Part shown: positions 20,432-52,664 of the stretch, one piece after another
How the letters are laid out: every line of letters begins with the position of its first letter
How positions within the stretch are numbered: position 1 is the stretch's first letter
Source: Nevskia sp.
Lineage (GTDB): Bacteria; Pseudomonadota; Gammaproteobacteria; Nevskiales; Nevskiaceae
Reading direction: 5' to 3'
DNA: 62,604 bases
NCBI GenBank assembly: GCA_016779605.1
Contig: JADHNH010000006.1
Coordinates: 1 to 62,604, forward strand
Notes under the pieces: generated by a model
What the model saw: only the letters and a program-made list of their open reading frames with translations
The model's database searches: none
What the model was told of the DNA's origin: nothing
Made by a program: the position numbers and the translations under genes

Positions 20432-21997
20432 TCATCGCCCGGCGTCGCGTTCGCGCAGCACGCGGCGCAGGATCTTGCCCGAGGCGGTCTTGGGGATCGC
20501 CTCGCAGGCCACCACCGCGCCGAGCTGCTTGTAGTCCACCACGCGTTGCGCCACCCAGTCCTTGATCTGCTCCGGCTCGAACGGCGCGCGGCCGACGACG
20601 TAGGCCACCGGGATCTCGCCGGCGCGCGCGTCCGGCCGGCCGATGACGGCGACGTCGGCGACCGCCGGATGGGTGAACAGCAGCGCTTCCAGTTCCGCCG
20701 GCGCCACCTGGAACCCCTTGACCTTGATCAGCTCCTTCATGCGGTCGGTGATGTACAGGTAGCCGTCGTCGTCGAAGTGGCCGATGTCGCCGGTGCGCAC
20801 CCAGCCGTCGGCGGTGAGGGTGGCGGCGGTGGCGGCCGGCTGGTGCAGGTAGCCCTTGAACGCCTGCGGCCCGCGGAACCAGATCTCGCCGGAGGCGTTG
20901 CGCCCCAGGTCGGCGCCGCTGGCCGGGTCCACCACGCGCGCCTGCGTGGCGGGCAGCAGCTGTCCGCTGGAGCCGGGGCGCGCTCGATCGGGATACGTCG
21001 CGGCGACCACGCCGGAGGATTCGGTCATGCCGAAGCCCTGCCCCACGCGGCACTTGAACCGCTCGGCGATGCGGCGCTCGCCTTCCGCCCCGAACGGCGC
21101 CGCGCCGGTGCCGATCGATTGCAGCGAGGACAGGTCGTGCGCGGCCACCAGCGGATGGCTGGCCAGGAAATGCATCAGCGGCGGCACCAGGTTCAGGTGG
21201 GTGACCCGGTGCGTCTGGATGGCGCCGAGGAATGCGGCCGGCTCGAAGCGCGGCAGCGTGACCAGGGTGGCGCCCGAGGCCAGCACGCGCAGGGTCATCA
21301 CGGTGAAGCCGTAGATGTGGAACATCGGCAGCACCGCCAGCACCACCGCCGTCTCCGCCAGGGGCACGGCCTGCATGTACTGGCAGACGTTGGCAACCAG
21401 CGTGCGGTGGCTCAGCATCACGCCCTTGGACAGCCCGGTGGTACCTGACGAGTACGGCAGCGCGGCCAGCGCATCGGCATCGGCCGTAGCCGCCGGCTCG
21501 GGCTCGGCGCATGCCGCCAGCGCGTCGAAGCCGAGCGCGCCTTGCGCCGCGCCGGCCACGATCAGGTGCTCGCAGCCCGACGACTCCGCCGCTTCGCGCG
21601 CCACGGCCAGGCCCGCCGGCGTGGTGAAAATGAAGCGCGCGCCGCAATCGCGCGCCTGGTGTGCGAGGTCGGCGGCGCCATAGGCCGGGTTGGCCCCGCT
21701 CACCGCGCCGCCGGCGGCGATGGCGCCAAGCGCAGCGACCGGCCACTCCGGCATGTTCGGCGCGAACATCAGCAGGGTGTCACCGGGCCTGAAGCCGTTG
21801 GCGGCGAGGCCGGCGGCAAAGCGCCCGATCAGGGCATCCAGCTCGCCGTAGCGGTAGCGGCGGCCGCTGGCCGCGTCCACCAGCGCCGTGCGCTGCGGGC
21901 GCCGGCGCGCCTGCGCGCGGATGAACTCCGCCACCGTGACGGCGGGAATCGGCGCCGCCAGCGGCGGGCCTTCCAGCAAGGCGCCGCCGGGGCTCAC
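20432..21997 (-). CDS. AMP-dependent acyl-CoA ligase (4-coumarate-CoA ligase-like)
   Basis: This 521-residue adenylating enzyme is a member of the ANL superfamily. The ATP-binding P-loop is LPYSSGTTGLSKGVM, the second core motif is GQGFGMTESSGV, and the hinge and C-terminal parts appear as GYLYITDRMKELIKVKGFQV and the catalytic-lysine segment PKTASGKILRRVL. Sequence style is that of 4-coumarate or medium-chain acyl-CoA ligases; the exact acid cannot be read. GTG 21997 was chosen because it overlaps the upstream stop (GTGA) and follows GAGGCGG; a longer frame reaching 22072 would run into the upstream gene. The neighbour downstream is an MDR reductase. Confidence 0.88.
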   Translation of the reverse strand: MSPGGALLEGPPLAAPIPAVTVAEFIRAQARRRPQRTALVDAASGRRYRYGELDALIGRFAAGLAANGFRPGDTLLMFAPNMPEWPVAALGAIAAGGAVSGANPAYGAADLAHQARDCGARFIFTTPAGLAVAREAAESSGCEHLIVAGAAQGALGFDALAACAEPEPAATADADALAALPYSSGTTGLSKGVMLSHRTLVANVCQYMQAVPLAETAVVLAVLPMFHIYGFTVMTLRVLASGATLVTLPRFEPAAFLGAIQTHRVTHLNLVPPLMHFLASHPLVAAHDLSSLQSIGTGAAPFGAEGERRIAERFKCRVGQGFGMTESSGVVAATYPDRARPGSSGQLLPATQARVVDPASGADLGRNASGEIWFRGPQAFKGYLHQPAATAATLTADGWVRTGDIGHFDDDGYLYITDRMKELIKVKGFQVAPAELEALLFTHPAVADVAVIGRPDARAGEIPVAYVVGRAPFEPEQIKDWVAQRVVDYKQLGAVVACEAIPKTASGKILRRVLRERDAGR

Positions 21998-24030
21998 GGC
22001 TTGGTTGCCGCCGCCTCGGCGGCAACCAGGCTGGCGAATCCCGGCGCGGTGCGCAGCGGATCCCAGCGGCAATCCTGCTTGAGCTCCGCCGCGGTAATTC
22101 CGCCGGGCTCCGCCAGGGAGGACTGCAATGCGGCGACTGCCGCGGCGGCGTCACCCCCATACATCTGCACCAGCGCCAGGTCGATGGTGGCATCCGGGCG
22201 CGCGAAGGCGTCCCTGGCGACTTGCGCCTGCCCCTGCGCGGCCATCTGCAAGGCGGCCGCGCGGTCGCCGAGCGCCGCGTCGACGGGGCCCAGCACCAGC
22301 AGGATGAACGCGCCGCTGTCGCCGGCCGCGCGCAGGCTCTCCAGCCGCTCGCGTACAAAGGCCAGGTCGGCCCGCGCCGCTTCGCGCTGGCCCGCGCAGG
22401 CTTCCAGGCCGGCGCGATTGAGGTGCGCGAACGCGGCCTCGGCCGGCGGCAGGGTGCCGCCGGCGTCGATGACCTTGCTCCACTCGGCGATGCCCTGGGC
22501 GTAGGTCCGCTGCTGCCGCCACAGCTTGGAGAAGGCTTGCGCCACGCGCGACTGCGAAGGATCCAGCCGGATGCCGGCCAGCGCTGCCGCCGCGGCCTCG
22601 GTGTTGCCCTGTGCCAGGTAGCTGCGGGCCTGCGAGGCGATGATGGTTTCGTTGCCGGGCTGCGCCTCCAGACCATGTCCGTACGCCTCGCGCGCCTGGT
22701 CGAAGCGCCGCAGCGCTTCCTGCGAAAAGCCGATGTTGATCCAGATCTCGGAGTTGTGCGGATCCAGCTGCGCGGCCTGCCGCAGGTCCGCCAGCGATTC
22801 CTCCCATTTCCCCTGCCGGCGCTTGACCAGGCCGATCAGCTCCATCACGAAGGCGCTGTTCGGGGTCTGGCGGCGGGCGTGCTCGTAGGCTTCCAGGGCG
22901 CCGTCGTAGTCCTCCTCGCCCCAGTAGCGGTAATAGCCCAGCGCCAGCCAGGCCTCCGGCAGGTCCGGCTGCAGACGCAGCGCGGCGTCGGCCGCCGCCT
23001 TGGCGGAGGCGAGTTGCTGCGGCGTGTGCTCGTGCTCGAAGTAGTACTGGGTGCGGGCGTTGGACAGGTAGGCCCAGGCTTCGGCGAAGTCCGGGTCGGC
23101 GGTGACCGCCTTGGTGAACAGGTCGATCAGCGACAGGAAATAGCCGCGCGACTCGTCGTAGTCGGTGGACAGGGCCACGCCGCGCAGGTAGGCGTCGTAG
23201 GCCTCGGCGCTGCGCGTCGGCAGCTTGGCCAGCGCCTGCCGTTCGCTGCCGCTGAGCTGCGCCTTGAGCGCCTGGGCGATGGCGCCGGCCACTTCGCTTT
23301 CGACGCTGAAGATGTTGTCCAGCTTGCGGTCGTAGGTCTGCGCCCACAGGTGATCGTCGGTCGCTGCGTGGATCAGCTGCACGTTGACGTGCACGGCGTC
23401 GCCGGATTTCTGCACCGAGCCTTCCAGGATGTTCGCCACGCCGAGCTGGCGCGCGATTTCCGGCAGGTTGTCCGGGCTGCTGGCGAAATGCTGCGTGGAG
23501 GTGCGCGAGATCACGCGCAGGGCGCCGATCTGCGCCAGCCGCGTGAGGATCTCGTCCTGGATGCCTTCGGCGAAGTAGGCGTTGGTCTTGTCGTCGGACA
23601 GGTTTTCGAACGGCAGCACCGCGATCGACTTGTCCGAGCCGCCGCCGCGGGCGCCCGGCCCGAGCACGCCGGCGCGATCCGCGGCGATGTAGGCGCCCGC
23701 CGCCACCAGCAGCGCGCCCAGCACGTAATTCAACCGGCGGTCCATGCTGCGACGCTGCGCCGCCTGCAGCGCCGCGTCGCCCGCCGCCAGCGCGTCGGTG
23801 CGCACGATGCCCTGCGGCGTGATGTCGAACACCCAGGACAGCGCCAGCGCCACCGGAAAGCCGGCGATGACCGCGATCACCACCCAGCGCACGGCGGAAT
23901 TCGAAACCTCGAAGAACGGGAACACCTGGGTGGCGACCTGCACCAGCAGCCAGCCCGCCACGCCGTAGGCCACGCCCACCTTGTAAACGTGGCGCCGCTG
24001 CAGCTCGACGAAGAACGACGGCTGGCTCAT
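21994..24030 (-). CDS. Membrane-anchored TolB-like/TPR protein
   Basis: This 678-residue protein begins at ATG 24030 with FFVELQRRHVYKVGVAYGVA, the opening shared by a family of proteobacterial membrane proteins related to adenylate-cyclase-associated TPR proteins. Two or three N-terminal transmembrane helices (about 20-40, 45-65, 115-135) are followed by a TolB/FlgO-like beta domain (SIAVLPFENLSDDKTNAYFA, EGIQDEILTRLAQ, VANILEGSVQKSG). At least six TPR motifs extend to the C terminus. No cyclase or DNA-binding domain is present. The TPR part should act as a cytosolic or periplasmic protein-protein scaffold. It is the first gene of the operon with the ligase and reductase. Confidence 0.85.
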   Translation of the reverse strand: MSQPSFFVELQRRHVYKVGVAYGVAGWLLVQVATQVFPFFEVSNSAVRWVVIAVIAGFPVALALSWVFDITPQGIVRTDALAAGDAALQAAQRRSMDRRLNYVLGALLVAAGAYIAADRAGVLGPGARGGGSDKSIAVLPFENLSDDKTNAYFAEGIQDEILTRLAQIGALRVISRTSTQHFASSPDNLPEIARQLGVANILEGSVQKSGDAVHVNVQLIHAATDDHLWAQTYDRKLDNIFSVESEVAGAIAQALKAQLSGSERQALAKLPTRSAEAYDAYLRGVALSTDYDESRGYFLSLIDLFTKAVTADPDFAEAWAYLSNARTQYYFEHEHTPQQLASAKAAADAALRLQPDLPEAWLALGYYRYWGEEDYDGALEAYEHARRQTPNSAFVMELIGLVKRRQGKWEESLADLRQAAQLDPHNSEIWINIGFSQEALRRFDQAREAYGHGLEAQPGNETIIASQARSYLAQGNTEAAAAALAGIRLDPSQSRVAQAFSKLWRQQRTYAQGIAEWSKVIDAGGTLPPAEAAFAHLNRAGLEACAGQREAARADLAFVRERLESLRAAGDSGAFILLVLGPVDAALGDRAAALQMAAQGQAQVARDAFARPDATIDLALVQMYGGDAAAAVAALQSSLAEPGGITAAELKQDCRWDPLRTAPGFASLVAAEAAATKP

Positions 24031-24314
24031 GGCACCGTCGTCCGCCCGCGCAACCCCGCGCGCGCAGCGCCCGCCTGCCGCCCGGCCTTCGAAACGAACC
24101 CCTGCATCCGGCTCCCCCTGCGTGGTGCCGGCTACTTTAACCCGAATGCACCGGCAACCGGCCGCTACGGCGGCGCGGAGGTTGCGATCCAAGGAATCTC
24201 TGAATAAGTCCGTCCTGGACTTAATTCAGGCGATAGCCATCGACAAGTGTGATTTTCAACGGCCTGCCATATCAATGGCTTGCGCCATTGAAAGTGGTTG
24301 GGCCGTCCGTGACC

Positions 24315-24524
24315 CTAAGGCCCGCCCGCCGGCGCCGATGCGGCGCGGTCGAGCATGCGCTCGGCCGCGTTGAGCAGGCGTTCCTGTGCCGCCAGCAGCG
24401 TGCGCAACTCGGCGCTGGCGTCCAGCGGACGCTCGAACAGGCGCGCGGCGTGCACGCTCGCGGCGATCTGCTCCAGGCGTTGCGCCACCAGGCGGTTCCG
24501 GTGCACGAACTTTTCCATCCTCAC
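24315..24524 (-). CDS. Small helical protein at the end of the ACP cluster
   Basis: This is a 69-residue product from GTG 24524, with a strong GGAGG seven bases upstream. The sequence (MEKFVHRNRLVAQRLEQIAA, then SVHAARLFERPLDASAELRT) is almost entirely amphipathic helix and may form a coiled-coil hairpin. It starts 55 bp after the NAD-synthetase-like gene on the same strand and is probably co-transcribed. No family is recognised; a structural or regulatory partner of the pathway is possible. Confidence 0.6.
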   Translation of the reverse strand: MRMEKFVHRNRLVAQRLEQIAASVHAARLFERPLDASAELRTLLAAQERLLNAAERMLDRAASAPAGGP

Positions 24525-24579
24525 GTTCAGGCCTCCAATTTGAGCGCAATAGCCGGGGCGTCACCGCTCCTCCGGCGCT

Positions 24580-25623
24580 TCAGGCAACCAGCGCCGGACT
24601 CCAGGCGGGCGCCGGCGCCGGCCCTCCCGCACGGAACGGCTCCAGTTCCGGAACACCTTCGAGCAGCAGGGGTGCCGCGTGCAGGTAGGCGGTGGTGCGG
24701 CGCTTCTGGTCGATGTCGTCGTAGACGCGCTGGATCTGCTCGGGCGTATAGCGCAGAACCGCGGCCGCTTCGGCCGGGGTCACGCCGTGGTTCTTGGCCC
24801 ACAGGATCAGGTCCAGCTTCGAGTAGTGCACCGAAAAGTAGAAGTCTTCCTGCGACTGTTCCAGGCTGTAGGTGTCGGTGGTCGGCTCGCGCTGCAGGAT
24901 CTCCTCGATGACGCCGAGGTGCCGCGCCAGCGCATAGACCTGCGTCTTGTACAGCCCGGCAATCGGCTTGACGTCCGCCGCGCCGTCGCCGAGCTTGACG
25001 AAAAAGCCCTGGTCGTACTCCAGGCGGTTGGGCGTGCCGGAGGTGGCGAACACCAGGCGGTCGGCGTGGAAATATTCCAGCATCTTGCGCACGCGCTGCT
25101 TGAAATTCGTCGCCGCGACGATCTGCAGGTAGGCCTGCGGCGACAGCCGCACGCGATGCTCGGCGCCGTCCGGCCGCCGTACCACCGCGTAGAACACGTT
25201 CAGTCCGCCGGATCCCAGGCGGTCGCCGTGCATGACGATTTTCCACGGCCAGTCCGGCTGGAATTCCGGGTACACCGAGCGCACCGCTTCGTCGCGCAGG
25301 CGGTAGCAGCCCAGGGCGTCGAGCACCGGCGCGATGTCGTGCACGCTGTAGCCGATGCCGAGGTTTTCGCACAGCTTGCGTCCGAACGCGCTGCTGTCGG
25401 AGCTCGAATCGCGTTCCGGCAGCAACAGGCCATGCACGCGCTTCGGCCCGAGCGCGCGCACCGCCAGCGCCGCCGTGCACGCCGAGTCGATGCCGCCCGA
25501 CACCGCCACCACCAGGCCGCGGCGCCGCAGGGTCGTCAGCACCGCCTCGCGCAGGCCGGCGCACAGCTGCGCCGCCTTGGCTTCCAGGTCGATCTGCAGC
25601 ACATTTTCGTGAAACGGGGTCAT
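24580..25623 (-). CDS. NAD-synthetase-like ATP pyrophosphatase (amide-forming), ACP cluster
   Basis: This 347-residue N-type ATP pyrophosphatase is related to ammonia-dependent NadE. The signature AVSGGIDSACTAALAV (SGGIDS at 42-47) binds ATP pyrophosphate. SGTPNRLEYDQGFFVKLGDG, then ADVKPIAGLYKTQVYALA, matches the NadE core in which a G-GD-sD-kPi-dl-Kt pattern follows. Compared with housekeeping NadE it carries an insert (about 95-150, including YPEFQPDWPWKIVMHGDRLG) and lacks a glutaminase domain, so it would use free ammonia. ATGA overlap with the AMP-ligase gene means tight coupling. It probably amidates a pathway intermediate rather than NAD precursor, but a role in NAD synthesis is not excluded. 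Confidence 0.8.
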   Translation of the reverse strand: MTPFHENVLQIDLEAKAAQLCAGLREAVLTTLRRRGLVVAVSGGIDSACTAALAVRALGPKRVHGLLLPERDSSSDSSAFGRKLCENLGIGYSVHDIAPVLDALGCYRLRDEAVRSVYPEFQPDWPWKIVMHGDRLGSGGLNVFYAVVRRPDGAEHRVRLSPQAYLQIVAATNFKQRVRKMLEYFHADRLVFATSGTPNRLEYDQGFFVKLGDGAADVKPIAGLYKTQVYALARHLGVIEEILQREPTTDTYSLEQSQEDFYFSVHYSKLDLILWAKNHGVTPAEAAAVLRYTPEQIQRVYDDIDQKRRTTAYLHAAPLLLEGVPELEPFRAGGPAPAPAWSPALVA

Positions 25624-27182
25624 TGGAGCACCTTGGTCTTGAGTTCGCCCTTGGCGATTTTTCCGGTGGTGGTTCGAGGCAGCACGGCCTCGAAACGGAT
25701 GGTTCGCGGCACCGCGTACGCCGAGCCCTGCTCGCGGCAGAACTTGCGCAGCGCGTTTTCGTCGGCTTCGGCACCCGCGCGCATCACCACGAACGCGGCG
25801 GCGCTCTCGCCCTCGACCGCGTCGGGCACGCCGACCACCGCCGCTTCGCTGACGTCGGGGTGGCGGCACAGGCATTGCTCGATTTCCGCGGCACCGATCC
25901 GATGGCCGCGGATCTTGAGGATGTCCTTGGCGCGGCCGGTGATGAAGAAGTAGCCGTCGGCATCGCGGTAGGCCAGGTCGCCGGTCCACAGCCAGCCGTG
26001 CCGGAGAATCTGCCGGGTGGCTTCCTCGTCGTTGTAATAGCCCTGGGTGACATTGTCGCCGCGCGCCGCCAGCTGGCCGACCTGCCCGGTGGCGCACTCG
26101 CGCCCGTCCTCGTCCAGCACGCGCAGCTCGACGCCGGCAATGCCGCGGCCGATCGAGCCCTCCTTGGCCTGCGCCGACTCCGGCGGCAGGTAGGACAGCC
26201 GTGCCGTGGCCTCGGTCTGGCCGTACATGACGTAGAGCCTGGCCGGCGCAAACGCCGCGCGGGCCCAGCGCACCGTGTCGGCCTGCATCGGCCCGCCCGC
26301 CTGCGTCACGTAGCGCAGCGCGGGAAAATCCGCGTCGGTGGCGGCACCCTGCCGGCGCAGCAGCTCGAACGTCAGCGGCACGCCGGCGAAACCGGTGCAG
26401 GCCTGCTGCGCCATGGCTTCCATCACCACGCGCGGATAGGTGAAGCGATGGTCGAAGAACACCGAACCGCCGGCCAGCAGGTGCGTCTGCAGCAGGCTTT
26501 TGCCGTAGCAGTGGTACAGCGGCAGGATCGACAGGACGCGATCCGCGGGGCCCAGTTGCAGGAATTCGCAGATGGAACGCGTATTGGCGGCGATGTTCCG
26601 GTGGGTCTGCACCACGCCCAGGCGGCGGCCGGTGCTGCCGGAGGTGTAGATGAGCAGCGCCGGCGCATCGGCATCCAGCACCGCAGACGGCGCCGGCGCG
26701 TGCCCGGCCTCGACGGCGCCGTCTTCGCCCACCCAGGTCCATTCGGCAGGCGCCAGCAGCTCGCACATGCGCGGCGGCGGCGGCGCCGGATGCACGATCC
26801 AGATCCGGCGGAACGGCGCATGGATGGCTGCCCACAGGGCGGCGTCGCGCCCGGCGATGACGGCGTGTCGCGCCTGCGTCTGCTCGGCGATGGCGCGCAG
26901 CGCTTCGGCGCCCCACTCGCGGCTCACCTCGACCGCACAGCCGCCGCAGGACTGCACCGCCAGGCTCGCCACCACCGCCGCCGGCCCGTTCGGCAGTGCC
27001 AGCATGACGCGCTCGCCCGCCGCCACGCCCTGCCGCGCCAGCAGCGCCGCCGCCAGCCTCACGCGCCCGGCGACTTCGCCGTAGCTGAGCCAGCCCGAGG
27101 GCGTGCCCAGGCAGGGCGCGAGCGGCGCCCGCGCCGCATGGGCCATCAGCCAATCCACCGCGAACGGGCTCGATGCGTTCAT
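25620..27182 (-). CDS. AMP-dependent acyl ligase of the ACP cluster
   Basis: This 520-residue ANL-family adenylating enzyme starts at ATG 27182 and overlaps the asparagine-synthetase stop (ATGA). The P-loop is LLIYTSGSTGRRLGVVQTHR; the second motif is LYVMYGQTEATARL; the hinge GYFFITGRAKDILKIRGHRI and the lysine motif PRTTTGKIAKGELKTK are both intact. Its style resembles the acyl-ACP/acyl-CoA ligases found in exosortase-associated polysaccharide clusters. With an ACP gene two positions upstream, it probably activates a carboxylic acid and loads it on that carrier. The acid cannot be deduced from sequence. Confidence 0.87.
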   Translation of the reverse strand: MNASSPFAVDWLMAHAARAPLAPCLGTPSGWLSYGEVAGRVRLAAALLARQGVAAGERVMLALPNGPAAVVASLAVQSCGGCAVEVSREWGAEALRAIAEQTQARHAVIAGRDAALWAAIHAPFRRIWIVHPAPPPPRMCELLAPAEWTWVGEDGAVEAGHAPAPSAVLDADAPALLIYTSGSTGRRLGVVQTHRNIAANTRSICEFLQLGPADRVLSILPLYHCYGKSLLQTHLLAGGSVFFDHRFTYPRVVMEAMAQQACTGFAGVPLTFELLRRQGAATDADFPALRYVTQAGGPMQADTVRWARAAFAPARLYVMYGQTEATARLSYLPPESAQAKEGSIGRGIAGVELRVLDEDGRECATGQVGQLAARGDNVTQGYYNDEEATRQILRHGWLWTGDLAYRDADGYFFITGRAKDILKIRGHRIGAAEIEQCLCRHPDVSEAAVVGVPDAVEGESAAAFVVMRAGAEADENALRKFCREQGSAYAVPRTIRFEAVLPRTTTGKIAKGELKTKVLQ

Positions 27183-29176
27183 GCCGCAGCCTCCGCCGGC
27201 GCGCCGAGCAACTCCACCTGGTCGATGCGGGCCTGCGGGATCCGCCGCTGCGCGCCGAATTGCCGCCAGAGCAGTTGCGTCGTCGCCACCGCCATCAACG
27301 CCATGTTGTCGGCTTCGGTCGGCGCCGCGCCGGATTGCGCCAGCTTGGCCACCAGCCGCTCCACCTTGGCACCGTCGAACACGCCGGCGCGGTCCACCGC
27401 CTCGCGCGCCAACAGCTCGCGGCTCCACTGCGGTGCCGCGGCGCCGGCCAGGCATTCGGCGACCGGCGCCCGGTAGGGAAACTTGGGCCGCTGCGCAACC
27501 GCGGCCGGCAACAGCGGCCGCGCGTAGCGCTTGAGAATGACTTTCTCCTTGAGACCGCACAGCTTCATGCGCGCCGGCAGCCGCGCGGCGAATTCGATCA
27601 GGCGATGGTCGAGGAACGGGAACCTTCCCTCCACCGAGTGCCCCATCAGCATGCGGTCGCCCTGTGCCGACAACAGGTAGCCGGACAGCAAGGTCTGCAT
27701 CTCCAGGTACTGGGCGCGCGCCAGCGGGCGCCAGCCGGCAAACGCCGGCGGCAGCGTATCCAGCAGGGCTTGCGCGGGCGTCTGGCCGTGCAGGGCCTGC
27801 ACGAACGCCGGCGCCAGGAATCGCGCCACGCGGCCGCTGTTGGCCCAGCGGATGCGATGGGAAAAATCGCGCGCCGCGCTGCCCTCGTCGCCGATGCCGT
27901 AGAACTGCCGCAGCATGGCCGGCGGCTGCTGCGACAGCGCCATGTACGGGTACAGCCGCCCCAGCAGCCGCGGACGCACCGCGGACTGCGGCTGCCGCGC
28001 CCAGAATTGGCGGATGGCGGTCTCCTTGAACAGGTCGTAGCCCCAGAAGGTCTCGTCGGCGCCTTCGCCGGTGAGCACCACCTTGGTGCCCTGCGACCGC
28101 ACCAGCTCCGACAGCCGGAAGAAAGGTGCCGGCGCCGAGCGCAGCAGCACTTGCTCGGCATGATCCACCACCGCCGGCAGCAGCTCGCCGATGTCACGGT
28201 CGCCGACCAGTACCTGGTGGTGCGCGGTGCCCAGCGCGCGCGCCACGCTGGCCTGGTAGCCGCGCTCGTCGTAACGCGCCTGCTCGAAGCCCACCGAGAA
28301 TGTCTGCAGCGTGCCCTTCAGCTCCCTCTGGGCGATCGCGCAGATCAGGCTGGAGTCGAGCCCGCCGGAAAGATAAGCCGCCACCGGCACGTCGGCGCGC
28401 AGGCGCAGCCGCACCGCGTCGGTGAGGATCTCGTCAAGCTGGGCCAGCGCGCGCGGTTCCGTCAGCGCGTGGTCCACCGCATCCGCGCCCAGGTCGAGAT
28501 CCCAGTAGCGGCGCACCGCGAGCCGGCCGCCGCGATGGCGGGCGGTGCATCCCGGCGGCAGCGACAGCACGCCGGCGAATGCGCTGTGCGGCGGTACCGG
28601 CGCCCACAGGTGCAGGGTCTGGTGCAGCGCGGCCCGGTCCAGCTCGGGCGCCAGCCAGCCGCCGGCGAAGATGGCCTTGGCCTCGGACGCGAAGGCCAGT
28701 CCGTCCCGGCCCTCGTGGTAGAACAACGGCCGCACGCCCACGCGGTCCCGCGCCAGCCAAAGGCTGCGGTCGCGCGGATCCCACAAGGCGAAGGCGAACT
28801 GGCCGATGAAGCTGCGCACGCAGTCGATCCCTTCGCGCAGGAACGCCGCCAGGATCACCTCGGTGTCCGAGCGCGTGCGGAAGCGATAGCCCGCCGCCAG
28901 CCGCGCGCGCAGTTCCACGTGGTTGAAAATCTCGCCGTTGAACACCACGCTGATGCCGCTATCCGGATCGGTCATGGGCTGATGACCGCCGGCCACGTCG
29001 ACGATCGAAAGGCGCGTGTGGCCCAGGCCGACGCCGTCGGCGAGCAGCGCTTGCTGCGCATCCGGTCCGCGGTGGTAAAGGCTGGCGGTCATCCGCCGCA
29101 GGGGCCCGGCGAAGCGCCGCAGGCGCTCCTGTTCGGACAGCTGGGCCGGCGTGGTGAATCCGACGATTCCGCACAT
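27179..29176 (-). CDS. asnB: Glutamine-hydrolysing asparagine synthetase homologue, ACP cluster
   Basis: This 665-residue class B amidotransferase starts MCGIVGF, so Cys2 is free to act as the glutaminase nucleophile. RLSIVDVAGGHQPM, then VVFNGEIFNHVELR and RSDTEVIL complete the glutaminase half. The synthetase half has AYLSGGLDSSLICA (the SGGLDSS pyrophosphate loop) and LTGEGADETFWGYD. All catalytic elements of AsnB are present and length is as for AsnB-like enzymes of natural-product and polysaccharide clusters. It lies 32 bp after the ACP gene. In this setting it may transfer ammonia to a carrier-bound or activated acid instead of aspartate. Confidence 0.9.
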   Translation of the reverse strand: MCGIVGFTTPAQLSEQERLRRFAGPLRRMTASLYHRGPDAQQALLADGVGLGHTRLSIVDVAGGHQPMTDPDSGISVVFNGEIFNHVELRARLAAGYRFRTRSDTEVILAAFLREGIDCVRSFIGQFAFALWDPRDRSLWLARDRVGVRPLFYHEGRDGLAFASEAKAIFAGGWLAPELDRAALHQTLHLWAPVPPHSAFAGVLSLPPGCTARHRGGRLAVRRYWDLDLGADAVDHALTEPRALAQLDEILTDAVRLRLRADVPVAAYLSGGLDSSLICAIAQRELKGTLQTFSVGFEQARYDERGYQASVARALGTAHHQVLVGDRDIGELLPAVVDHAEQVLLRSAPAPFFRLSELVRSQGTKVVLTGEGADETFWGYDLFKETAIRQFWARQPQSAVRPRLLGRLYPYMALSQQPPAMLRQFYGIGDEGSAARDFSHRIRWANSGRVARFLAPAFVQALHGQTPAQALLDTLPPAFAGWRPLARAQYLEMQTLLSGYLLSAQGDRMLMGHSVEGRFPFLDHRLIEFAARLPARMKLCGLKEKVILKRYARPLLPAAVAQRPKFPYRAPVAECLAGAAAPQWSRELLAREAVDRAGVFDGAKVERLVAKLAQSGAAPTEADNMALMAVATTQLLWRQFGAQRRIPQARIDQVELLGAPAEAAA

Positions 29177-29208
29177 GATCGGCAGCGCCTGGCGCAGGTA
29201 ATCGCGGG

Positions 29209-29451
29209 CTAGGCGGCGACGGCGCGCTTGCGCTCGATGAACCCGGCCAGGTTGTCGACCGAGTCCAGGTTCTCCGGCACCAGTTCGACGTCGACGATGG
29301 CGATCCCGAACGTCTTTTCCAGGAACACCACCAGCTCGAGCATGCCCATGGAATCGATGATGCCGTTCTTGAGGAACGAATCGCCGTCGGCGAACTCGTC
29401 GACGAAAAACGTGTCGCTGATGAATGACCGAATCTGCTCTCTTGACGTCAT
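29209..29451 (-). CDS. Acyl carrier protein
   Basis: This is an 80-residue carrier. The phosphopantetheine site is in the segment GIIDSMGMLELVVFLEKTFG, where Ser34 of the DSM motif takes the prosthetic group. Helix I (REQIRSFISDTFF) and the acidic helix around DSVDNLAGFIERKR complete the four-helix fold. It is not the fatty-acid AcpP (which has DSLD and lies near fabF) but a dedicated carrier of this cluster. ATG 29451 overlaps the stop of the upstream acyltransferase gene (ATGA). Everything in the cluster downstream could act on its acyl group. Confidence 0.92.
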   Translation of the reverse strand: MTSREQIRSFISDTFFVDEFADGDSFLKNGIIDSMGMLELVVFLEKTFGIAIVDVELVPENLDSVDNLAGFIERKRAVAA

Positions 29452-30053
29452 GACAGCCCTCCCAATAATTGGCCGGCGGCCTGCGCCGGTCGCAGCGGTG
29501 TTCGAACATCCGGCGCCGTCCCGGCCCTGCGGCCCAGCGCATCCAGCGGCATCGCCCTGGCGGGTGCGCCCAGTGCCAGGCTATGCGCCGGCACGTCGCT
29601 GACCACGACGCTGCCGGCGGCGACCACCGAGCCCTCGCCGATCGTCACCCCGGGGCTGAGCACGGCACCATGCGCCACCCAGACATCGTCGCCGACGACG
29701 ATGTCGCCGCCGGCACCGTCGGCGCTGCGGATCTGCACCATCGAGGCGAACATGCAGCGCTTGCCGACCGTGAACGAGTGCGCGACCTCGATCACCGCGC
29801 CGTAGTTGAACAGCGACTCCTCGCCGATCCGCATGCTGGCACCCGCGCGCACCGTGATCGCCGTCGGGATCATGCCGCCGAGAAACGTGACGTTGCGCCC
29901 GACCTGCAGCGTGCCGCGATTGTCCAGCACGATCGGCCCGGTGACGCAGACGCCCCGCCCGATCTGCGCGCTGCGCAGCACCCAGCGTGCCCGCAGGCGC
30001 CCGAAGAAGCGCACCTGCTTGCGCCACAGGCCGTTGTCGTCGAAGTCGGTCAC
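29448..30053 (-). CDS. Left-handed beta-helix acyltransferase 1
   Basis: This acyl- or acetyltransferase of about 201 residues is of the hexapeptide (LbH) type, with repeats such as ITVRAGASMRIGEESLFNYG, then IVVGDDVWVAHGAVLSPGVT and IGEGSVVAAGSVV. The C-terminal VPAHSLALGAPARAM is the typical closing motif, and the histidine in EVAHSF is a candidate catalytic base. GTG 30053 was chosen because it follows the upstream stop by 16 bp; an upstream frame overlaps the previous gene. Such enzymes trim sugars or amino groups with acetyl- or acyl-CoA/ACP, and the coupled ACP gene suggests an acyl-ACP donor. Confidence 0.83.
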   Translation of the reverse strand: MTDFDDNGLWRKQVRFFGRLRARWVLRSAQIGRGVCVTGPIVLDNRGTLQVGRNVTFLGGMIPTAITVRAGASMRIGEESLFNYGAVIEVAHSFTVGKRCMFASMVQIRSADGAGGDIVVGDDVWVAHGAVLSPGVTIGEGSVVAAGSVVVSDVPAHSLALGAPARAMPLDALGRRAGTAPDVRTPLRPAQAAGQLLGGLS

Positions 30054-30069
30054 GTCCGCTGGAGCCTCG

Positions 30070-30612
30070 CTACTGCGCCGCGGCGGCGTGCACCGCACGC
30101 GGGGGATTGCCCGCGACGAATGCGGCTTTCGGCACGCGCCGGCTGATCACCGAGTGCGGGCCGATGCGCGCGCCCGCCTGCACGCAGGCGCCCGGCAGCA
30201 GGATGGCGTGCTCGCCGATGCGCACGCCCTGTTCCACGCAGACCTTCACCGACGGCGGCCGCTGGTGGCGGTCGCCGCGCAGCGGGTGGAACTGGTTGTC
30301 GATGATCTTGACGAACGGCTCCAGCACGCTGGCGCCGCCGATCTTCACGTTGTCGGTCGCCTCGATCGAGCAGCCGCCGCGCACGATCACATCGTCGCCG
30401 ATCTCGATCACTGCGCCGCGGGTCGCGTGCAGTTCGATCGGCGCAGCGCGGCCGTCGAGCAGTACGTTGCGGCCCAGTACGATGCGCCCGCCGCCGCGGA
30501 TCCACAGGCGGCCCAGTGCGCGCGTACCGCTGCCGACTTCGCTACAGCGCCACAGCCGCAGCCGGGTGCAGGCGTCGACCGCGCGCTGCCGCACTAGATC
30601 GAAGCAGTTCAT
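30070..30612 (-). CDS. Left-handed beta-helix acyltransferase 2
   Basis: This 180-residue hexapeptide-repeat transferase is the first gene of the ACP cluster. Coils include IVLGRNVLLDGRAAPIELHA, then VIEIGDDVIVRGGCSIEATD, VKIGGASVLEPFVKI and RIGEHAILLPGACVQAGARI. The tail SRRVPKAAFVAGNPPRAV is the family end motif. Histidine in DNQFHPL may be the catalytic base. It is only distantly similar to the second LbH enzyme and may act on a different position of the product. The gene has no strong ribosome site; the promoter of the cluster should lie in the 343 bp upstream. Confidence 0.82.
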   Translation of the reverse strand: MNCFDLVRQRAVDACTRLRLWRCSEVGSGTRALGRLWIRGGGRIVLGRNVLLDGRAAPIELHATRGAVIEIGDDVIVRGGCSIEATDNVKIGGASVLEPFVKIIDNQFHPLRGDRHQRPPSVKVCVEQGVRIGEHAILLPGACVQAGARIGPHSVISRRVPKAAFVAGNPPRAVHAAAAQ

Positions 30613-30955: not shown

Positions 30956-33532
30956 TTATGCGGCGTGGGACGCGGGTGGAGCGCCGCCGGACGAGTGGGG
31001 GCGCACGCTGCCGTGGCCGCGCACGGCGTTGCGGCCCGAACGCTTGGCCTGGTACATCGCCTGGTCGGCGCGGCCGAGCAGCGCTTCGATCGCCGCGTCG
31101 CCCGGCTCCATCGAGGCCACGCCGATGGAGGCGGTGACTTCAAGCGTGGTGCCGTCCGGCAGCCGGAAGGTGCCGGCGGCGATCGAGCCGCGCAGCCGCT
31201 CGGCCACTTCCATCGCCTGTTCGTGCGTGGTATCGGGCAGGGCGATGCAGAATTCCTCGCCGCCGAGGCGCCCGGCGATATCGACCTCGCGCAGCGCCAG
31301 GCGGATCAGCTGCCCCAGGTGCTGCAGCACGGCATCGCCGCCCTGGTGGCCATGGACGTCGTTGATCTTCTTGAAGTGGTCCACGTCCAGGATCATCAGG
31401 GACAGCTCGCCGCCATGCCTTTGCAGGCGCTTGATCTCGCGGCCGGCCACCTCCAGGAAGTGCCGGCGCGTGCCGAGCTCGGTGAGCACGTCCAGCGTCG
31501 CCAGGCGTTCCAGCTCCTGCGCCATGCGCCGGCGCTCGCTGATGTCGATGAACGATTCGATCACCTCGCGCACGGCGCCCTGCCGGTCGTACTGACATAC
31601 GGCGTTGACCAGCAGCCAGCGCACCGCGCCGCCGGCGGAGCGGATGCCGACCACGCGGTCCGTCGCCGTGCCCCGCGTCTGCAGCGCCAGGCTGATCGGG
31701 TGTTCCTGCACCGGCAGCGCCGTGCCGTCTTCGCGCACCAGACGCCAGCGCGGATCGCCGAGCACGCCGCCGATCAGCTCCGCTTGGGGCACGCCCAGCA
31801 GGTCCGCGGCCTGCGGATTGGCGAACTTGATGCGGGCGTCGGCGCCGTACACCATCACCGCCGCGTGCACGCCGTCGAGCACCGACTGCAGCTGCGCGCG
31901 GCCTTGTTCCAGTGCCTGCTCCAGCCGCCTGCGCTCGGAGACGTCGCGGACGATGCTGGCGATACCGGTCACGGCACCGGCGGAGTCGCGGATCGGCGAC
32001 GCCGTCAGCGAAACCTCGACCTGCGCGCCGTCCTTGCGGCAAAGCGGCATGTCGAACTGCCCGACGGTCTCTCCCCGGCGCACCCGCTCGAGCACCGTCA
32101 GGCCGCGCGCCAGCTGCTCCGGCGAGGCCAGCAGGGTCAGTGAATTGCCGATCATTTCCCCCGCGCCGTAGCCGAACAGCGCCGTCGCCGCCGGGTTCCA
32201 GCTGGTGATGGTACCGTCGGGCCGGCTGCTGATGACGGCGTCGTTGGAGTTTTCCACCACCAGCGACAGCAGCCGGCGCATGCTCTCGGCGTTGCGGCGC
32301 TCGCGCATGTCGTAGATCGTGCTGCGGCTGCGCAGGAACCGGCCCTCGGCATCCTTCACCGCGGTGGCGCTGAGCAGCACCGGCAGCAGCGAGCCGTCCT
32401 TGCAGATGAACTCCAGTTCCAGGTCGCGCACGCTGCCGGTGCGCATGAATTGCGGATAGTTCACTTCGACGATCGCCCGGCTGGCGGGCGTGACCAGGTC
32501 GACCGCTTTCACCCGCCCGACCAGTTCTTCGCGGCTGTATCCCAGCCATTCCAGCTCGGTGCGGTTGATCTCGACGATGAGGCCGTCCGCGTCGAGGGAA
32601 TGGTAGCCGCAGGGCGCGCCGTCGTAGAGATCCCGGATCTGGCCGGAGGAGCGTTCGAGCGCGCGGTTGACCTCACCCAGTTGCGCCGCGCGGTGCCGGA
32701 GATTCTGCGTCTGCGCAACCAGGCCGGCCATCAGCATCGACACCAGCAGCCCCAGTCCGAGCAGGAGATTGGGCAGGCGGGCGACCTCCGGTCCGGTCGC
32801 CTCCGCCGTGAGCTGGGTGCGCAGCGCCTGCCAGCCGAGCAGCACGAGCAGGCTCAGGCCGACGCCGACGCTGGCCGACAGCCAGGGCACGTCGCTCCAG
32901 GAAGCGGCCCGGCCGATGCCCATGGTGGCGAGCACCAGCGCGACTCCCAGCACGGCGAGTCCCGCCGCGGTCAGCGCCGCCATGCGCGTCAGCCAGCCCC
33001 ACTCGAACGCCGGCGCGATGCCGAACACGTAGCCGGTCAAGGCGACCAGGCCGATGGCCGAGACAATGCTGCCGAGCACCCCTGCGACCGCCAGGGTGGA
33101 CGGCCGCCGTCCCAGGCCGGCGAGCGCGACGCCCAGACCCGCCAGCGCCAGCGCCGAGGCCGTGTTCGGCGCCATGCGTCCGGGATGGACCAGATGCATG
33201 GCCGGCGGCACGCGCAGGAACAGTTCGTCGACGCCCAGGGAAACCGAGCTCAGATACTCTTCAAGGGTAAGCACACCCGCCAGGGAGGCGAGCATTCCGA
33301 CGGCCACGGCGAGCCTGGAAAACCCGCTCAGCGCGGCGCGCAGGCCGGTGCCGCACATGACAAAGGTCAGTGCCGTATTGAACGAAACCGGCGGAGAAGC
33401 GGGCGCAAGCTGGGTCCATCCCGGTGCACCGGCAATCCAGGCCAGGCAGATGCCGGCACTGGCCGCAATCAGAATGTCCGCAAGCACGGCGGCGAATCGA
33501 ACCATCGTTCGCTGACGATCCAGTTCTCTCAT
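30956..33532 (-). CDS. Membrane PAS-GGDEF diguanylate cyclase
   Basis: This 858-residue cyclic-di-GMP synthase starts with a membrane region of about eight helices (residues 10-270, including VRFAAVLADILIAASAGICL). Three PAS domains follow (RDLYDGAPCGYHSLDADG, then VVENSNDAVISSRPDG, then VLDGVHAAVMVYGADA) and a GGDEF domain ends the protein. The active site reads GGEEF at 757-761, which is functional in many enzymes, and the inhibitory site RxxD (REVD) lies five residues before it, so product feedback is likely. A perfect FNR-like palindrome lies 123 bp upstream with a matching -10, suggesting control by a Crp/Fnr protein. It may regulate the exopolysaccharide locus. Confidence 0.9.
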   Translation of the reverse strand: MRELDRQRTMVRFAAVLADILIAASAGICLAWIAGAPGWTQLAPASPPVSFNTALTFVMCGTGLRAALSGFSRLAVAVGMLASLAGVLTLEEYLSSVSLGVDELFLRVPPAMHLVHPGRMAPNTASALALAGLGVALAGLGRRPSTLAVAGVLGSIVSAIGLVALTGYVFGIAPAFEWGWLTRMAALTAAGLAVLGVALVLATMGIGRAASWSDVPWLSASVGVGLSLLVLLGWQALRTQLTAEATGPEVARLPNLLLGLGLLVSMLMAGLVAQTQNLRHRAAQLGEVNRALERSSGQIRDLYDGAPCGYHSLDADGLIVEINRTELEWLGYSREELVGRVKAVDLVTPASRAIVEVNYPQFMRTGSVRDLELEFICKDGSLLPVLLSATAVKDAEGRFLRSRSTIYDMRERRNAESMRRLLSLVVENSNDAVISSRPDGTITSWNPAATALFGYGAGEMIGNSLTLLASPEQLARGLTVLERVRRGETVGQFDMPLCRKDGAQVEVSLTASPIRDSAGAVTGIASIVRDVSERRRLEQALEQGRAQLQSVLDGVHAAVMVYGADARIKFANPQAADLLGVPQAELIGGVLGDPRWRLVREDGTALPVQEHPISLALQTRGTATDRVVGIRSAGGAVRWLLVNAVCQYDRQGAVREVIESFIDISERRRMAQELERLATLDVLTELGTRRHFLEVAGREIKRLQRHGGELSLMILDVDHFKKINDVHGHQGGDAVLQHLGQLIRLALREVDIAGRLGGEEFCIALPDTTHEQAMEVAERLRGSIAAGTFRLPDGTTLEVTASIGVASMEPGDAAIEALLGRADQAMYQAKRSGRNAVRGHGSVRPHSSGGAPPASHAA

Positions 33533-33690: not shown

Positions 33691-34605
<915 letters not shown>

Positions 34606-35099: not shown

Positions 35100-35900
35100 C
35101 TAGGCAGGCCGCCTGGCCGGGGCGGACGCACGGCCGCGCGCGATCGGCGCCGTGCCCGGAACGAGGCGTTCCACTTCGTGCCGCACCAGCTCGTAGCATT
35201 CGCAGGCGCCGGCTTCCAGGCCGGCGCGATCGACGATGCGGATGCGGCCGGAACGGTGGCCGACATGGCCGGCTGCCTGCAGCTCGCTCACGGCCGCAGC
35301 GGTTTCTTCCGCGCCTGCCTGCAGCAGTGTCGCCAGTACCTCGGGGCTCACCGTAGACGCGCCGCCTAGACGGTCCGCGCACGCCAGCAGGCAGGAGCAG
35401 GTACGCTGGCGCAGTCCGTGGGTGCGCCGGCAGGTGGCCACCTGCGCCGCCTGGAAATACAGCGCCTGTGCGTAGCGCAGCAGCAGGCGCTCGAGCGCCA
35501 CCGAACGTTGCAGCTCCTGGCGCAGGTCGTGCCAGCGCAGGCGCAGGCAGTGCCCGGCCGTTTGCGCCACCGCCGTACCCGCCGCCGCCCTGCCACCCAT
35601 GAAAAGCGCCACGCCGACGAAGCCTTCGTTGCCCACTGCGACCATTTCCTCGGTCCTGCCGTCTTCCGCCAGCTGGCTCAGGCCGATGATGCAGTCGAGC
35701 GGGAAATAGGCATGGCGAAGAAACTGGCCCGGCTGGTACAGCACCGTACCTGCGCGCAGCTCCACCGGCTCAAGTCGGCCGCAGGCGGACAATTCGGCGG
35801 CCGCGGGCCAGGCCGCGAGCAGGCGGTTCTGTGCGAGCAGCGGCCGGGCCGGGCCGGCCGGCGCTGCAAGCCCTTCTCCACATCGGTCGGAACGGTACAT
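35100..35900 (-). CDS. Crp/Fnr-family regulator 1
   Basis: This 266-residue protein has a cyclic-nucleotide-binding-like beta barrel (LEPVELRAGTVLYQPGQFLR, then HAYFPLDCIIGLSQLAEDGR, then EEMVAVGNEGFVGVALFMGG) and a long dimer helix. The C-terminal DNA-binding part is short and degenerate (STVSPEVLATLLQAGAEETA) but ends with the ACECYELVRHE motif shared with the other two Crp/Fnr proteins here. No FNR-type iron-sulphur cysteines are seen near the N terminus. The 'YFP-D-i-sL' and 'VGNEG' signatures place it in the subgroup of Crp/Fnr proteins that lack the standard cAMP-binding Arg/Ser pair. It lies upstream of the small winged-helix and sigma genes on the same strand. Confidence 0.85.
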   Translation of the reverse strand: MYRSDRCGEGLAAPAGPARPLLAQNRLLAAWPAAAELSACGRLEPVELRAGTVLYQPGQFLRHAYFPLDCIIGLSQLAEDGRTEEMVAVGNEGFVGVALFMGGRAAAGTAVAQTAGHCLRLRWHDLRQELQRSVALERLLLRYAQALYFQAAQVATCRRTHGLRQRTCSCLLACADRLGGASTVSPEVLATLLQAGAEETAAAVSELQAAGHVGHRSGRIRIVDRAGLEAGACECYELVRHEVERLVPGTAPIARGRASAPARRPA

Positions 35901-36027
35901 AAGCGGGCACGCACTGCCAGGTGAGTGCCAACCCTAGCAACGCCAGCCGCAAACCTCGGTGCGGCAAACCACACTCGCAGACCGCGGCGCGGGCGTCCGC
36001 GCCGACGCCGCGGGCTTGCGCCCTGCG

Positions 36028-37197
36028 TCAGAACCGTCCCTGGCCCGCCAGCATCTGCGGCGCGGGGCGCAGGTTCGCGCCGGAGCCCATGCCCGCGGCC
36101 GCTTTGGCGCCGCCGGCGGCGGCAAGGACCGGCCGCAGGCGATCGAACTCGCACCTGATCAGGCCATAGCACTCGCAGGCCCTGCGCACCAGGCCATTGC
36201 GGTCGTCGACCCAGACCACGCCGCGCGCGTGGCGGATCAGGCCGGCCTTCTTGAGCCGGCCCAGGGCCTCGGTGACGCCTTCGCGCCGCACGCCGAGCAC
36301 GCCGGCGATGCCCTCGTGCGTGGCGCCGATCCTGCGCGTGCGCAGGCGGTCCACGTTCGCCAGCAGCAGCCGGCACACCTGCTGATCGACCGTATGGTGG
36401 CGGTTGCAGGCCGCCGATTGCGCCACCTGCATCAGCACCGCGCGGAAGTAGCGGAGCAACAGCGCCTGCACCGCGGCGCTGCGCTCGAACGAGCGCCGGA
36501 TCACCTCGGCCGGCAGGCGCCAGGCATATCCGCCCGACTCGACGCGCGCCCGGCGCGCCGCCGACTCCGCGCCCATCACCACCGCGACGTCGAGCATGCC
36601 CTCGTTGCCTACCGTGGCGACCTCGCTGGACGCGCCGTCTTCCATCTCGTGCACCAGCGAGACGATGCAGTCGACCGGGAAGAACACATGGCGCATGCGG
36701 TCGCCGAGCTCCCACAGCACCATGCCCTGCGCCATCGGCACCAGCTCCAGGTGCGGCTCCAGCGCCTTCGGATCCGCCTCCCGCAGCAGGATCAGCAGGC
36801 GGCTTTGCTGGGCCTTGCGTTTTTCGCTGGCGGCCGGTGCCTGCGTGCGATCCGTGCTGCGCCGGCTCGAGGCTGCTGTGGCGTCGCCGCGCGGGCGCGC
36901 CGCCACGTGCCGCAACAACTGCGTGCTGCGCGCACCGCAAGCGTCCGCCAGCGCGCAGTTGCCGCCCTCGCCCTGGCGGGCGAGGTAGTAGTGGCAATTG
37001 CCGGCCTGATGCTCGGCACGCAGGCATCCGCAATCCGTCAGCCGCTTGATGCCGGTAGCCAGGTCGTCCCGGCGCAGGCCGGTGGACTCCCACAGGCGGT
37101 AAAGATTGTGCGCTTCCATCGGCCCGCGGCCGCGCGGCGCGACGGTCGAAAAAATCTCGCGAACGGCCGAAACGGCCACGTCGTCGGAAAAACTCAC
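36028..37197 (-). CDS. Crp/Fnr-family regulator 2 with an N-terminal winged-helix-like, Cys-rich domain
   Basis: This 389-residue fusion starts at GTG 37197 behind GGGGAGG. Residues 8-75 are the small winged-helix-like domain (MEAHNLYRLWESTGLRRDDL, W36 and TG39-40 as in the stand-alone copy). Five cysteines fall in or just after it (C56, C58, C68, C81, C87), a plausible metal or Fe-S ligand set. After a linker, residues about 130-370 are a Crp/Fnr protein: HVFFPVDCIVSLVHEMEDGA, TVGNEGMLDVAVVMG, an HTH with TRRIGATHEGIAGVLGVRRE, then GVTEALGRLKKAGLI, and the CECYGLIRCE end. An FNR-type palindrome sits 75 bp upstream, so autoregulation is likely. Confidence 0.85.
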   Translation of the reverse strand: MSFSDDVAVSAVREIFSTVAPRGRGPMEAHNLYRLWESTGLRRDDLATGIKRLTDCGCLRAEHQAGNCHYYLARQGEGGNCALADACGARSTQLLRHVAARPRGDATAASSRRSTDRTQAPAASEKRKAQQSRLLILLREADPKALEPHLELVPMAQGMVLWELGDRMRHVFFPVDCIVSLVHEMEDGASSEVATVGNEGMLDVAVVMGAESAARRARVESGGYAWRLPAEVIRRSFERSAAVQALLLRYFRAVLMQVAQSAACNRHHTVDQQVCRLLLANVDRLRTRRIGATHEGIAGVLGVRREGVTEALGRLKKAGLIRHARGVVWVDDRNGLVRRACECYGLIRCEFDRLRPVLAAAGGAKAAAGMGSGANLRPAPQMLAGQGRF

Positions 37198-37243
37198 GGA
37201 ATGCCTCCCCTGGCGAAGATTACATCTTCCTTACATCTGTTTC

Positions 37244-37285
37244 AGTCTACCGTTCGCCAGCGCACATATCATTGACCTGGGTCAA
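37244..37285 (-). promoter_or_regulatory. FNR-type palindrome and -10 upstream of Crp/Fnr regulator 2
   Basis: TTGACCTGGGTCAA (37272-37285) is identical to the palindrome upstream of the diguanylate cyclase. On the reverse strand a class II start site would be near 37237, and TAGACT occupies 37249-37244, exactly the -10 position. The gene start at 37197 is about 40 nt beyond. This spacing match in two promoters supports function. Confidence 0.6.
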
Positions 37286-37527
37286 CCAATGGCCCCGCGG
37301 ACCGGGCGCCGTCGTTGCCGCCTGGCGACGAACGGTAATGCATCGGTGACGCGCGGCGCTTGTTTTCCGCCGGAAGCCCGCCGAACTGCGCCGATGTCGC
37401 CGTTTAACGCGGTGGGCCGCACAGACAAACGCAGAACCCCGAAGGTGTCCCCGTCGCTGCCGAAACCCGCCGTCGAGCGGAACACCCGGCGCGAATACTT
37501 TTTTCGGACTCCTGGGAAGACATGACT

Positions 37528-39855: not shown

Positions 39856-39881
39856 GCGTTTTCCCGGCGCGGCGTTTCACG

Positions 39882-39917
39882 GCCCCCGGCGCATGCGCGC
39901 CGGGGGCTTGTTTTTTT
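39882..39917 (+). terminator. Rho-independent terminator of the GH5 gene
   Basis: A perfect 11-bp stem GCCCCCGGCGC / GCGCCGGGGGC with loop ATGC is followed by TTGTTTTTTT. It starts 26 bp after the stop codon and isolates the GH5 gene from the Crp/Fnr gene downstream. Confidence 0.92.
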
Positions 39918-40041
39918 GAACAGGGCCTCGGTGCTTTATCGCACGGACGAACTCGGCCGCCCTGCATACAGTCGGCGGCCAATGGATTCCTGCGCCGACC
40001 CGATGGCGCAGGCTCATGCCTGTTCGCCATCGGAGGAATGC

Positions 40042-46649: not shown

Positions 46650-46719
46650 ACGGCAGCGGCACGCCGCGCCGGCAGACCTGCGCGGCAACCCCGGCGACGC
46701 CGCCGCCGTCCTGCCCCGC

Positions 46720-47964: not shown

Positions 47965-48233
47965 TACCGACTCCCGGATGACTGTGGGTAAGACGAGGCG
48001 GCGTGCAGCGCGTCGACGACGCCGGGCGCTCGCTTGCCGCATTTCGCGCGGGCATTTGAGCCGCTCCGCCCGCCGGCCGTCTGTTGGATACCGGACATAG
48101 GGCCTGATCGTGGCTCGCCGCCGCGCACGGCGCATCGGGGAGCGCAATGGCGCCGGCGCACTTTCGTTCGGGGCCGCACAGACCCGCGGCCCGACGGCCA
48201 CTAGATTGCCGCTTCCGCACCAGGAGCGCCCGC

Positions 48234-52659: not shown

Positions 52660-52664
52660 GCCCC

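Follow-up and report, generated by a model that had tools for sequence, protein, structure and literature searches.

An acyl carrier protein, an amidotransferase, an acid ligase and a NadE-like enzyme form a recurrent gene module in Nevskia and distant bacteria

A compact gene cassette is found in Nevskia sp. on contig JADHNH010000006.1, of which we analyzed a stretch of 62,604 nucleotides, referred to as the window in the following. It comprises seven minus-strand open reading frames (ORFs) at positions 24315–30612 (Table 1), which overlap by four bases at three junctions (LbH2/ACP, AsnB/ligase and ligase/NadE-like). A preliminary description of the window had seen in them a set of seven genes, encoding two hexapeptide-type (LbH) proteins, an acyl carrier protein (ACP), an AsnB-type amidotransferase, an AMP-forming acid ligase, a NadE-like ATP pyrophosphatase and a small protein. 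The reading frames, their overlaps and the families are indeed present. Pfam assigns every cassette protein above cut-off except the ACP, which falls just short, and the small ORF. The set itself consists of six genes and does not include the small ORF.

Table 1. Features of the window discussed in the text.
Feature	Position	Strand	Remarks
LbH1	30612-30070	minus	180 aa; alternative start at 30594 gives 174 aa
LbH2	30053-29448	minus	201 aa; GTG start
ACP	29451-29209	minus	80 aa
AsnB-type amidotransferase	29176-27179	minus	665 aa
AMP-forming acid ligase	27182-25620	minus	520 aa
NadE-like ATP pyrophosphatase	25623-24580	minus	347 aa
Small ORF	24524-24315	minus	no Pfam or NCBIfam family matched
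TPR protein	21994-24192		weak TolB- and CadC-type matches
PAS-GGDEF diguanylate cyclase	30956-33532	minus	upstream of the cassette
RpoH-like sigma factor	33691-34605
Three Crp-like regulators around a choice-of-anchor repeat protein	35100-40788		repeat protein at 37522-39855; between cassette and exopolysaccharide cluster
Exopolysaccharide cluster	40804-57349		WcaJ-type sugar transferase, EpsL-like, EpsA-type glycosyltransferase, EpsE, EpsF, ParA-like, Wzy_C, acyltransferase 3, GT2, GMC-like oxidoreductase, ATP-grasp protein

The ACP scores 19.8 bits against the Pfam PP-binding model (cut-off 20.8), and its NCBIfam ACP matches likewise stay below their cut-offs. It carries the motif IIDSMG; IDSTG stands in most of the aligned homologs shown. 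Two specialized carrier families are far off: DltC of the D-alanylation (Dlt) system (24.6 versus a cut-off of 68 bits) and the ornithine-lipid carrier of OlsHI (NF052616; 44.6 versus 130 bits). The amidotransferase, with 319.1 bits for Asn_synthase and 142.4 bits for GATase_7 in Pfam, carries an MCG N-terminus and the motifs SGGLDSS and GEGADE, and its best sequence matches among solved structures are a hydroxyamidotransferase (PDB 7ylz) and asparagine synthetase B (1ct9). The stretches RtAPaP and FwxRqPxS are conserved in the AsnB family of the cassette and its relatives. The ligase matches AMP-binding with 249 bits and AMP-binding_C with 77.2 bits, and its nearest solved relatives are oxalate-, malonyl- and aryl-acid-CoA ligases plus fatty-acid ligases. 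Its homologs fall into two subfamilies, one with CYGKS and YGQTEATARLSYLPP (the window and Myxococcaceae, with variants in others), the other with FDYGLYQ and YGLTECK-RCTYLPP (Sinorhizobium and Mesorhizobium, with variants in others). Among the core components it is therefore the ligase that is exchanged most readily, and the acid that it loads may differ between lineages.

The NadE-like protein belongs to NCBIfam PRK00876 (470.2 bits, cut-off 313). Its portrayal in the preliminary description as an ammonia-dependent enzyme with an insert fits the sequence: Pfam recognizes the NAD_synthase domain and finds no glutaminase domain, and an extra segment spans approximately residues 105–161. In an AlphaFold2 model (34 sequences, pLDDT 87.5), this insert forms a helix and three strands, and the first seven PDB matches of the model are all NadE-type chains (TMt 0.84–0.88). 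The protein thus has the fold of the NAD synthetase NadE, and also its SGGIDS loop, its GDGxADxKPI motif and its LYKTQV core; across the family, SGGIDS and GDGxADxKPIAhLYKtQvY are kept. It differs from NadE in the insert, in its fixed linkage to ACP, AsnB and ligase genes, and in another loop, which reads PTTDTYSxxQxQEeFYF in the family versus, for example, SAGLWEGQTDEDELG in solved NAD synthetases. The corresponding motif of solved NadE (SAGLWxGQTDE type), which we take to be catalytic, does not occur in the NadE-like protein.

A separate NadE is encoded elsewhere in the same genome (C106, 244 bits), and one is found at E ≤ 1e-20 in 12 of 14 other genomes that carry PRK00876. PRK00876 exceeds its cut-off in this genome only among 61 (our genome and 60 relatives), and in 15 of the 398 genomes of an even phylum sample, our own included. 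On a more speculative reading, taken up below, the NadE-like enzyme would be an NAD synthetase recruited for an acid of the cassette's pathway, possibly in its ACP-bound form. If this repurposing is true, the automatic label ‘NAD(+) synthase’ on the PRK00876 branch would need correction. One control genome, that of the archaeon Methanosarcina acetivorans, also encodes a PRK00876 protein above cut-off.

Both hexapeptide proteins exceed the Pfam Hexapep cut-off of 27 bits (LbH1 with 32.3, LbH2 with 43.6). A profile of LbH1 built from 14 homologs matches DapD-type and maltose O-acetyltransferases, QdtC and others in the PDB, and His103 (numbering of the 174-residue form), located in the stretch DNxxHPLxGNRHxRP, is invariant across the 14 sequences. 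For an AlphaFold2 model of LbH1 (pLDDT 76), the PDB yielded no match at E ≤ 0.001 and only chance-level similarity to beta-solenoids.

The preliminary description had proposed a search for the same gene order in other genomes, and this search shows that the ACP, AsnB, ligase and NadE-like genes form a recurrent module across distant bacteria. We collected 41 loci in a scan of named genomes, many of them metagenome bins, with the NadE-like protein, and used the proteins of the window as tblastn queries (E ≤ 1e-3) to score the four core genes in the DNA fetched for each locus. The core is complete in 30 of the 41 loci, which by record title belong to Myxococcota, Planctomycetota, Actinomycetota, Gemmatimonadota and Pseudomonadota; the Gemmatimonadota core is a single locus with weak ligase and ACP matches. 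All four genes are likewise present in 13 of 14 loci from the phylum sample, and their order varies among loci. This linkage exceeds chance: at least one core partner lies within approximately 1.5 kb in 14 of 14 PRK00876 loci (stretches of approximately 4.0 kb), versus 0 of 30 loci of other NadE-type genes with an AsnB, ligase or ACP gene (stretches of 3.2–3.7 kb), these controls having been drawn from our own genome and its relatives rather than from the same genomes as the PRK00876 loci. Furthermore, the pairwise distances of the core proteins, taken from the best match per locus, correlate for all six protein pairs (r = 0.49–0.64), with 0 of 999 permutations reaching the observed value, a signal that may reflect co-evolution or shared species history. 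On a Sedimentisphaerales contig (L073, 1–7086), two NadE-like genes occur, with AsnB and ligase genes between or before them.

A known relative of the core lies on the pSymB plasmid of Sinorhizobium meliloti. The NadE-like gene is found in 117 plasmid records (E ≤ 1e-30), 76 of them from Sinorhizobium, and the pSymB order is asnB-acp-ligase-nadE. The ACP of this operon carries a DST motif and has a single place on pSymB of strain 1021; since the strain 1021 record that we used carries no annotation, the locus tags SMb20650 (ligase) and SMb20651 (ACP) were assigned on the basis of the plasmid, the pairing of the two genes and the DST motif. As in the window, the four genes, including a PRK00876 NadE, stand in one block, but LbH genes do not adjoin it, the gene order is different, and the ligase is of the other subfamily (33% identical). 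In the literature, SMb20651 is described as a protein with a DST motif whose function was called unknown (PMC12391972) and was elsewhere said to need study or to be unclear (PMC5686131, PMC9542644). SMb20650 is reported to be cotranscribed with SMb20651; coexpression of both with AcpS in Escherichia coli gave acylated SMb20651, and SMb20650 did not replace FadD, as the growth of a fadD mutant on oleate was not complemented (PMC7232532, the acylation citing Ramos-Vega 2009). The formation of an acyl-ACP by the ligase, as the preliminary description had envisaged, has thus been reported for the S. meliloti homologs, and is presumed by analogy for the proteins of the window. That description had also called the gene set unrecognized and the best candidate for an undescribed pathway. 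In the openly licensed literature, we found no characterized pathway, no description of a complete one and no product for this gene combination or for the S. meliloti tags, although work on S. meliloti has already made part of the core known. We see in the cassette a novel form of acyl modification on a carrier protein.

The full six-gene form, LbH1-LbH2-ACP-AsnB-ligase-NadE on one strand and in this order, is present in 17 of the 41 named loci, all titled Myxococcota; a further locus (L068) has the set minus a ligase match. The LbH pair is confined to this Myxococcota-type version of the module, in which LbH2 orthologs come after LbH1. Identities of the 17 loci to the window reflect the shared ancestry of the cassettes: 72–78% for NadE, 48–63% for AsnB, 55–57% for the ligase, 56–68% for the ACP, 46–53% for LbH1 and 45–49% for LbH2. 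In the NadE, AsnB and ligase trees, the window stands beside a Cystobacterineae locus (L058), inside a Myxococcota group that also includes a contig binned as Chloroflexi (L062). The NadE and AsnB trees place this group apart from L083 (Lysobacterales) and from four loci of the window's class (L099, L102, L103 and L104). Of these five, the ligase tree includes just L099, L102 and L104; there, L102 and L104 share the window's half of the tree but do not belong to its group of 13 (support 100/100). PRK00876 exceeds its cut-off in none of 17 genomes of the same genus, and G+C content (70.4% in the cassette versus 69.0% in the window) provides no indication of transfer. The trees and the conserved order nonetheless make it probable that the whole cassette came in one piece from a donor of Myxococcota type.

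A family of exported-looking proteins of approximately 285 residues is encoded upstream of the cassette in 17 of 17 six-gene loci, with three copies in L058 (463–3860); members also occur in L062, L077, L078, L079 and L081. It was not found in the window, nor in our own genome in a search run without a positive control. By eye, conserved GHxSVG and GHLN stretches give it an SGNH-like look, which searches of Pfam, NCBIfam and PDB profiles, all without a match, did not support.

To see what surrounds the module, genes were called and clustered at 55 loci, and flanking families were counted without a shuffle control and checked in Pfam through one member each. Sugar-transferase families flank 12 of the 55 loci, and one of them is shared with the WcaJ-type protein of the window; glycosyltransferases of family GT4 flank four loci and polysaccharide deacetylases two. 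An AcpS family adjoins the module in three (L077, L079 and L081, the last being the member checked), and a thioesterase domain protein is encoded in L100, with a homolog in L092. Two further flanking families of approximately 350–400 residues look like acyltransferases by eye; neither has a Pfam or NCBIfam match, and a PDB profile search, made for one of them, returned nothing. Finally, a PrmC/HemK-like methyltransferase family with an invariant NPPY stands by the module in 8 of the 55 loci (L076, L078, L083, L091, L093, L096, L098 and L100), and its best solved relatives are HemK/PrmC. Two members scanned with the PrmC model scored 200.7 (L078) and 178.9 bits, for a cut-off of 199.1. In five genomes of the phylum sample, the module-linked copy lacks the first 44–52 model positions, and a complete PrmC is encoded elsewhere in each; the three other members (L076, L078 and L083) are longer. 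PrmC methylates a glutamine carboxamide, and dedicated PrmC-like copies therefore point to a carboxamide product.

Based on these observations, we propose that the six genes constitute a dedicated pathway that builds a carboxamide-containing acyl group on a carrier and then passes it on. The recipient would most likely be a sugar in a surface polysaccharide. To this reading we assign a probability of about 0.5. The AMP-forming ligase would adenylate a small carboxylic acid and load it onto the ACP. AsnB, fed by glutamine, and the NadE-like enzyme, fed by ammonia, would both activate a carboxylate by adenylation and introduce an amide nitrogen, either ahead of ACP loading or following it. LbH1, perhaps together with LbH2, would then hand the acyl group over from the ACP to an acceptor, probably a glycan of the cell surface. 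That the product is an amide, how the steps follow one another, that the acyl group is transferred and that a glycan receives it are what we infer. A more far-reaching version, which we consider possible but doubtful, would extend this to an undescribed module of five phyla, in which an ACP-bound carboxamide is made by two nitrogen-inserting enzymes, the NadE-like one being a recruited NAD synthetase, is N-methylated in some lineages by a repurposed PrmC, and is passed on by exchangeable acyltransferases that decorate surface glycans.

Several observations weigh against the proposed pathway. At least one core gene is missing from 11 of the 41 named loci: eight (L053, L062, L068, L072, L073, L074, L076 and L082, some cut by a contig end) have NadE with one or two of the others, and three from Desulfobacterales (L085, L087 and L088) have NadE with none of the other three. 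One phylum-sample locus, L097, has no AsnB in the stretch fetched. Two of the 14 module genomes (G342 and G227) show no second NadE match at E ≤ 1e-20; with the same threshold, two of 14 control genomes are missed as well, although the NAD_synthase domain is present in them. LbH2 may be structural and non-catalytic, because no conserved His is seen after its DxDG stretch in the aligned rows shown. A PrmC-like gene is absent from the cassette of the window, and the non-rhizobial PrmC-like copies could be housekeeping PrmC, as may be true for the copy in L078 because its score passes the cut-off. Moreover, no glycan gene adjoins the pSymB operon, where the nearest annotated one, a lipopolysaccharide biosynthesis gene, is approximately 12 kb away, and no glycan genes were recognized by eye around the Myxococcaceae cassettes.

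An operon that stands alone in this way in S. meliloti and, by eye, in Myxococcaceae would also be expected if the same chemistry yielded a soluble small molecule or a lipid, such as a secreted amide, a signal or a lipid head group, instead of a glycan decoration. The thioesterase domain proteins of L100 and L092 and the resemblance of the ligase to acyl-CoA ligases agree with such a product; the sugar-transferase families beside 12 of 55 loci and the hexapeptide proteins of the window's version do not, and we consider it rather unlikely.

Alternatively, there may be no joint product at all. WbpS-type enzymes form a uronamide on a nucleotide sugar, and AsnB might do the same while the ligase, the ACP and the NadE-like enzyme make an unrelated acyl group. 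AsnB homologs do occur in exopolysaccharide clusters; two asparagine synthetase genes in the cluster of Zoogloea resiniphila are an example (PMC9012009). This division of labor nevertheless appears improbable, as AsnB travels with the other three genes where no glycan genes adjoin, as in S. meliloti, and its distances track those of the other core proteins.

The membership of the ligase in the acyl-CoA ligase superfamily would also allow the ACP to carry an ordinary fatty acid, so that the module would yield either a fatty amide or a surface molecule bearing a fatty acyl chain. The nearest solved ligases, however, include oxalate-, malonyl- and aryl-acid-CoA ligases besides the fatty-acid ones, and SMb20650 fails to complement fadD on oleate (PMC7232532), an assay with CoA rather than ACP as the acceptor; we regard this option as quite improbable. 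Least credible, and in our judgment very unlikely, is a plain second NAD synthetase whose neighbors supply ammonia or sit there by chance, for although the NCBIfam name, the NadE fold and the two module genomes with no other NadE match at the threshold used agree with it, the separate NadE in our own genome and in 12 of 14 module genomes, the different loop motif and the consistent linkage to ACP, AsnB and ligase do not.

The preliminary description had further noted that pairs of ligase and amidotransferase occur in exosortase-associated clusters; the cassette, however, does not fit this comparison. The XrtA/PEP-CTERM set does contain an AMP-ligase and an AsnB-type amidotransferase, matching TIGR03098 and TIGR03108, but the cassette's proteins score far below the cut-offs of both models (306.1 versus 592.35 bits for the ligase on TIGR03098, and 412.6 versus 816.9 bits for AsnB on TIGR03108) and are joined by the NadE-like enzyme. 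Our genome, which is 95% complete, has no PF09721 exosortase match, and only 2 of 15 module genomes, our own included in the count, encode an exosortase. On account of these scores and the absence of exosortase from the other 13, we reject an exosortase system.

The carboxamide pathway proposed here is open to direct experiment, given that the module is present in tractable bacteria such as Sinorhizobium meliloti and many Corallococcus and Myxococcus species. Its product would explain the purpose of the orphan ACP described in 2009 and, if our reading is true, the module would be a case of an NAD synthetase turned to another substrate.

The small ORF at the end of the cassette is a real gene of its own lineage outside the module. 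Homologs (E ≤ 0.01) occur in 7 of 60 relatives, with several copies in two of them (G007 and G001), and none of the seven has a cassette-type NadE (PRK00876). The cassette genes are absent from six fetched stretches around these homologs, and tblastn did not find the small ORF in other cassettes (L036-L090, L050-L109). We have rejected it as a pathway member on account of its absence from other cassettes and its homologs in relatives lacking the cassette NadE. A reading frame at 30941–30609, in the gap between the diguanylate cyclase gene and LbH1, was likewise rejected as a hidden gene, as it was not picked by a codon-position filter and its translation reads as non-coding; no family search was made with it. 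A scan for promoters and terminators gave a single promoter-like site, on the opposite strand, and no excess of terminators.

Regarding the neighboring genes, the diguanylate cyclase has no match at E ≤ 1e-60 in the 17 genomes of the same genus. The TPR protein is multicopy, with seven matches in our own genome and up to nine per genome of the same genus, and for this reason is unusable as an anchor for an empty site. The RpoH-like sigma factor is one of three matches in its own genome and shares no more than 45% identity with the copies listed from relatives. Lastly, the exopolysaccharide cluster, 10 kb from the cassette, has counterparts within the genus: relatives of EpsE, EpsF and EpsG, mostly with Wzy, stand together in five stretches, and an EpsF-type gene (E ≤ 1e-40) is present in 6 of the 17 genomes.

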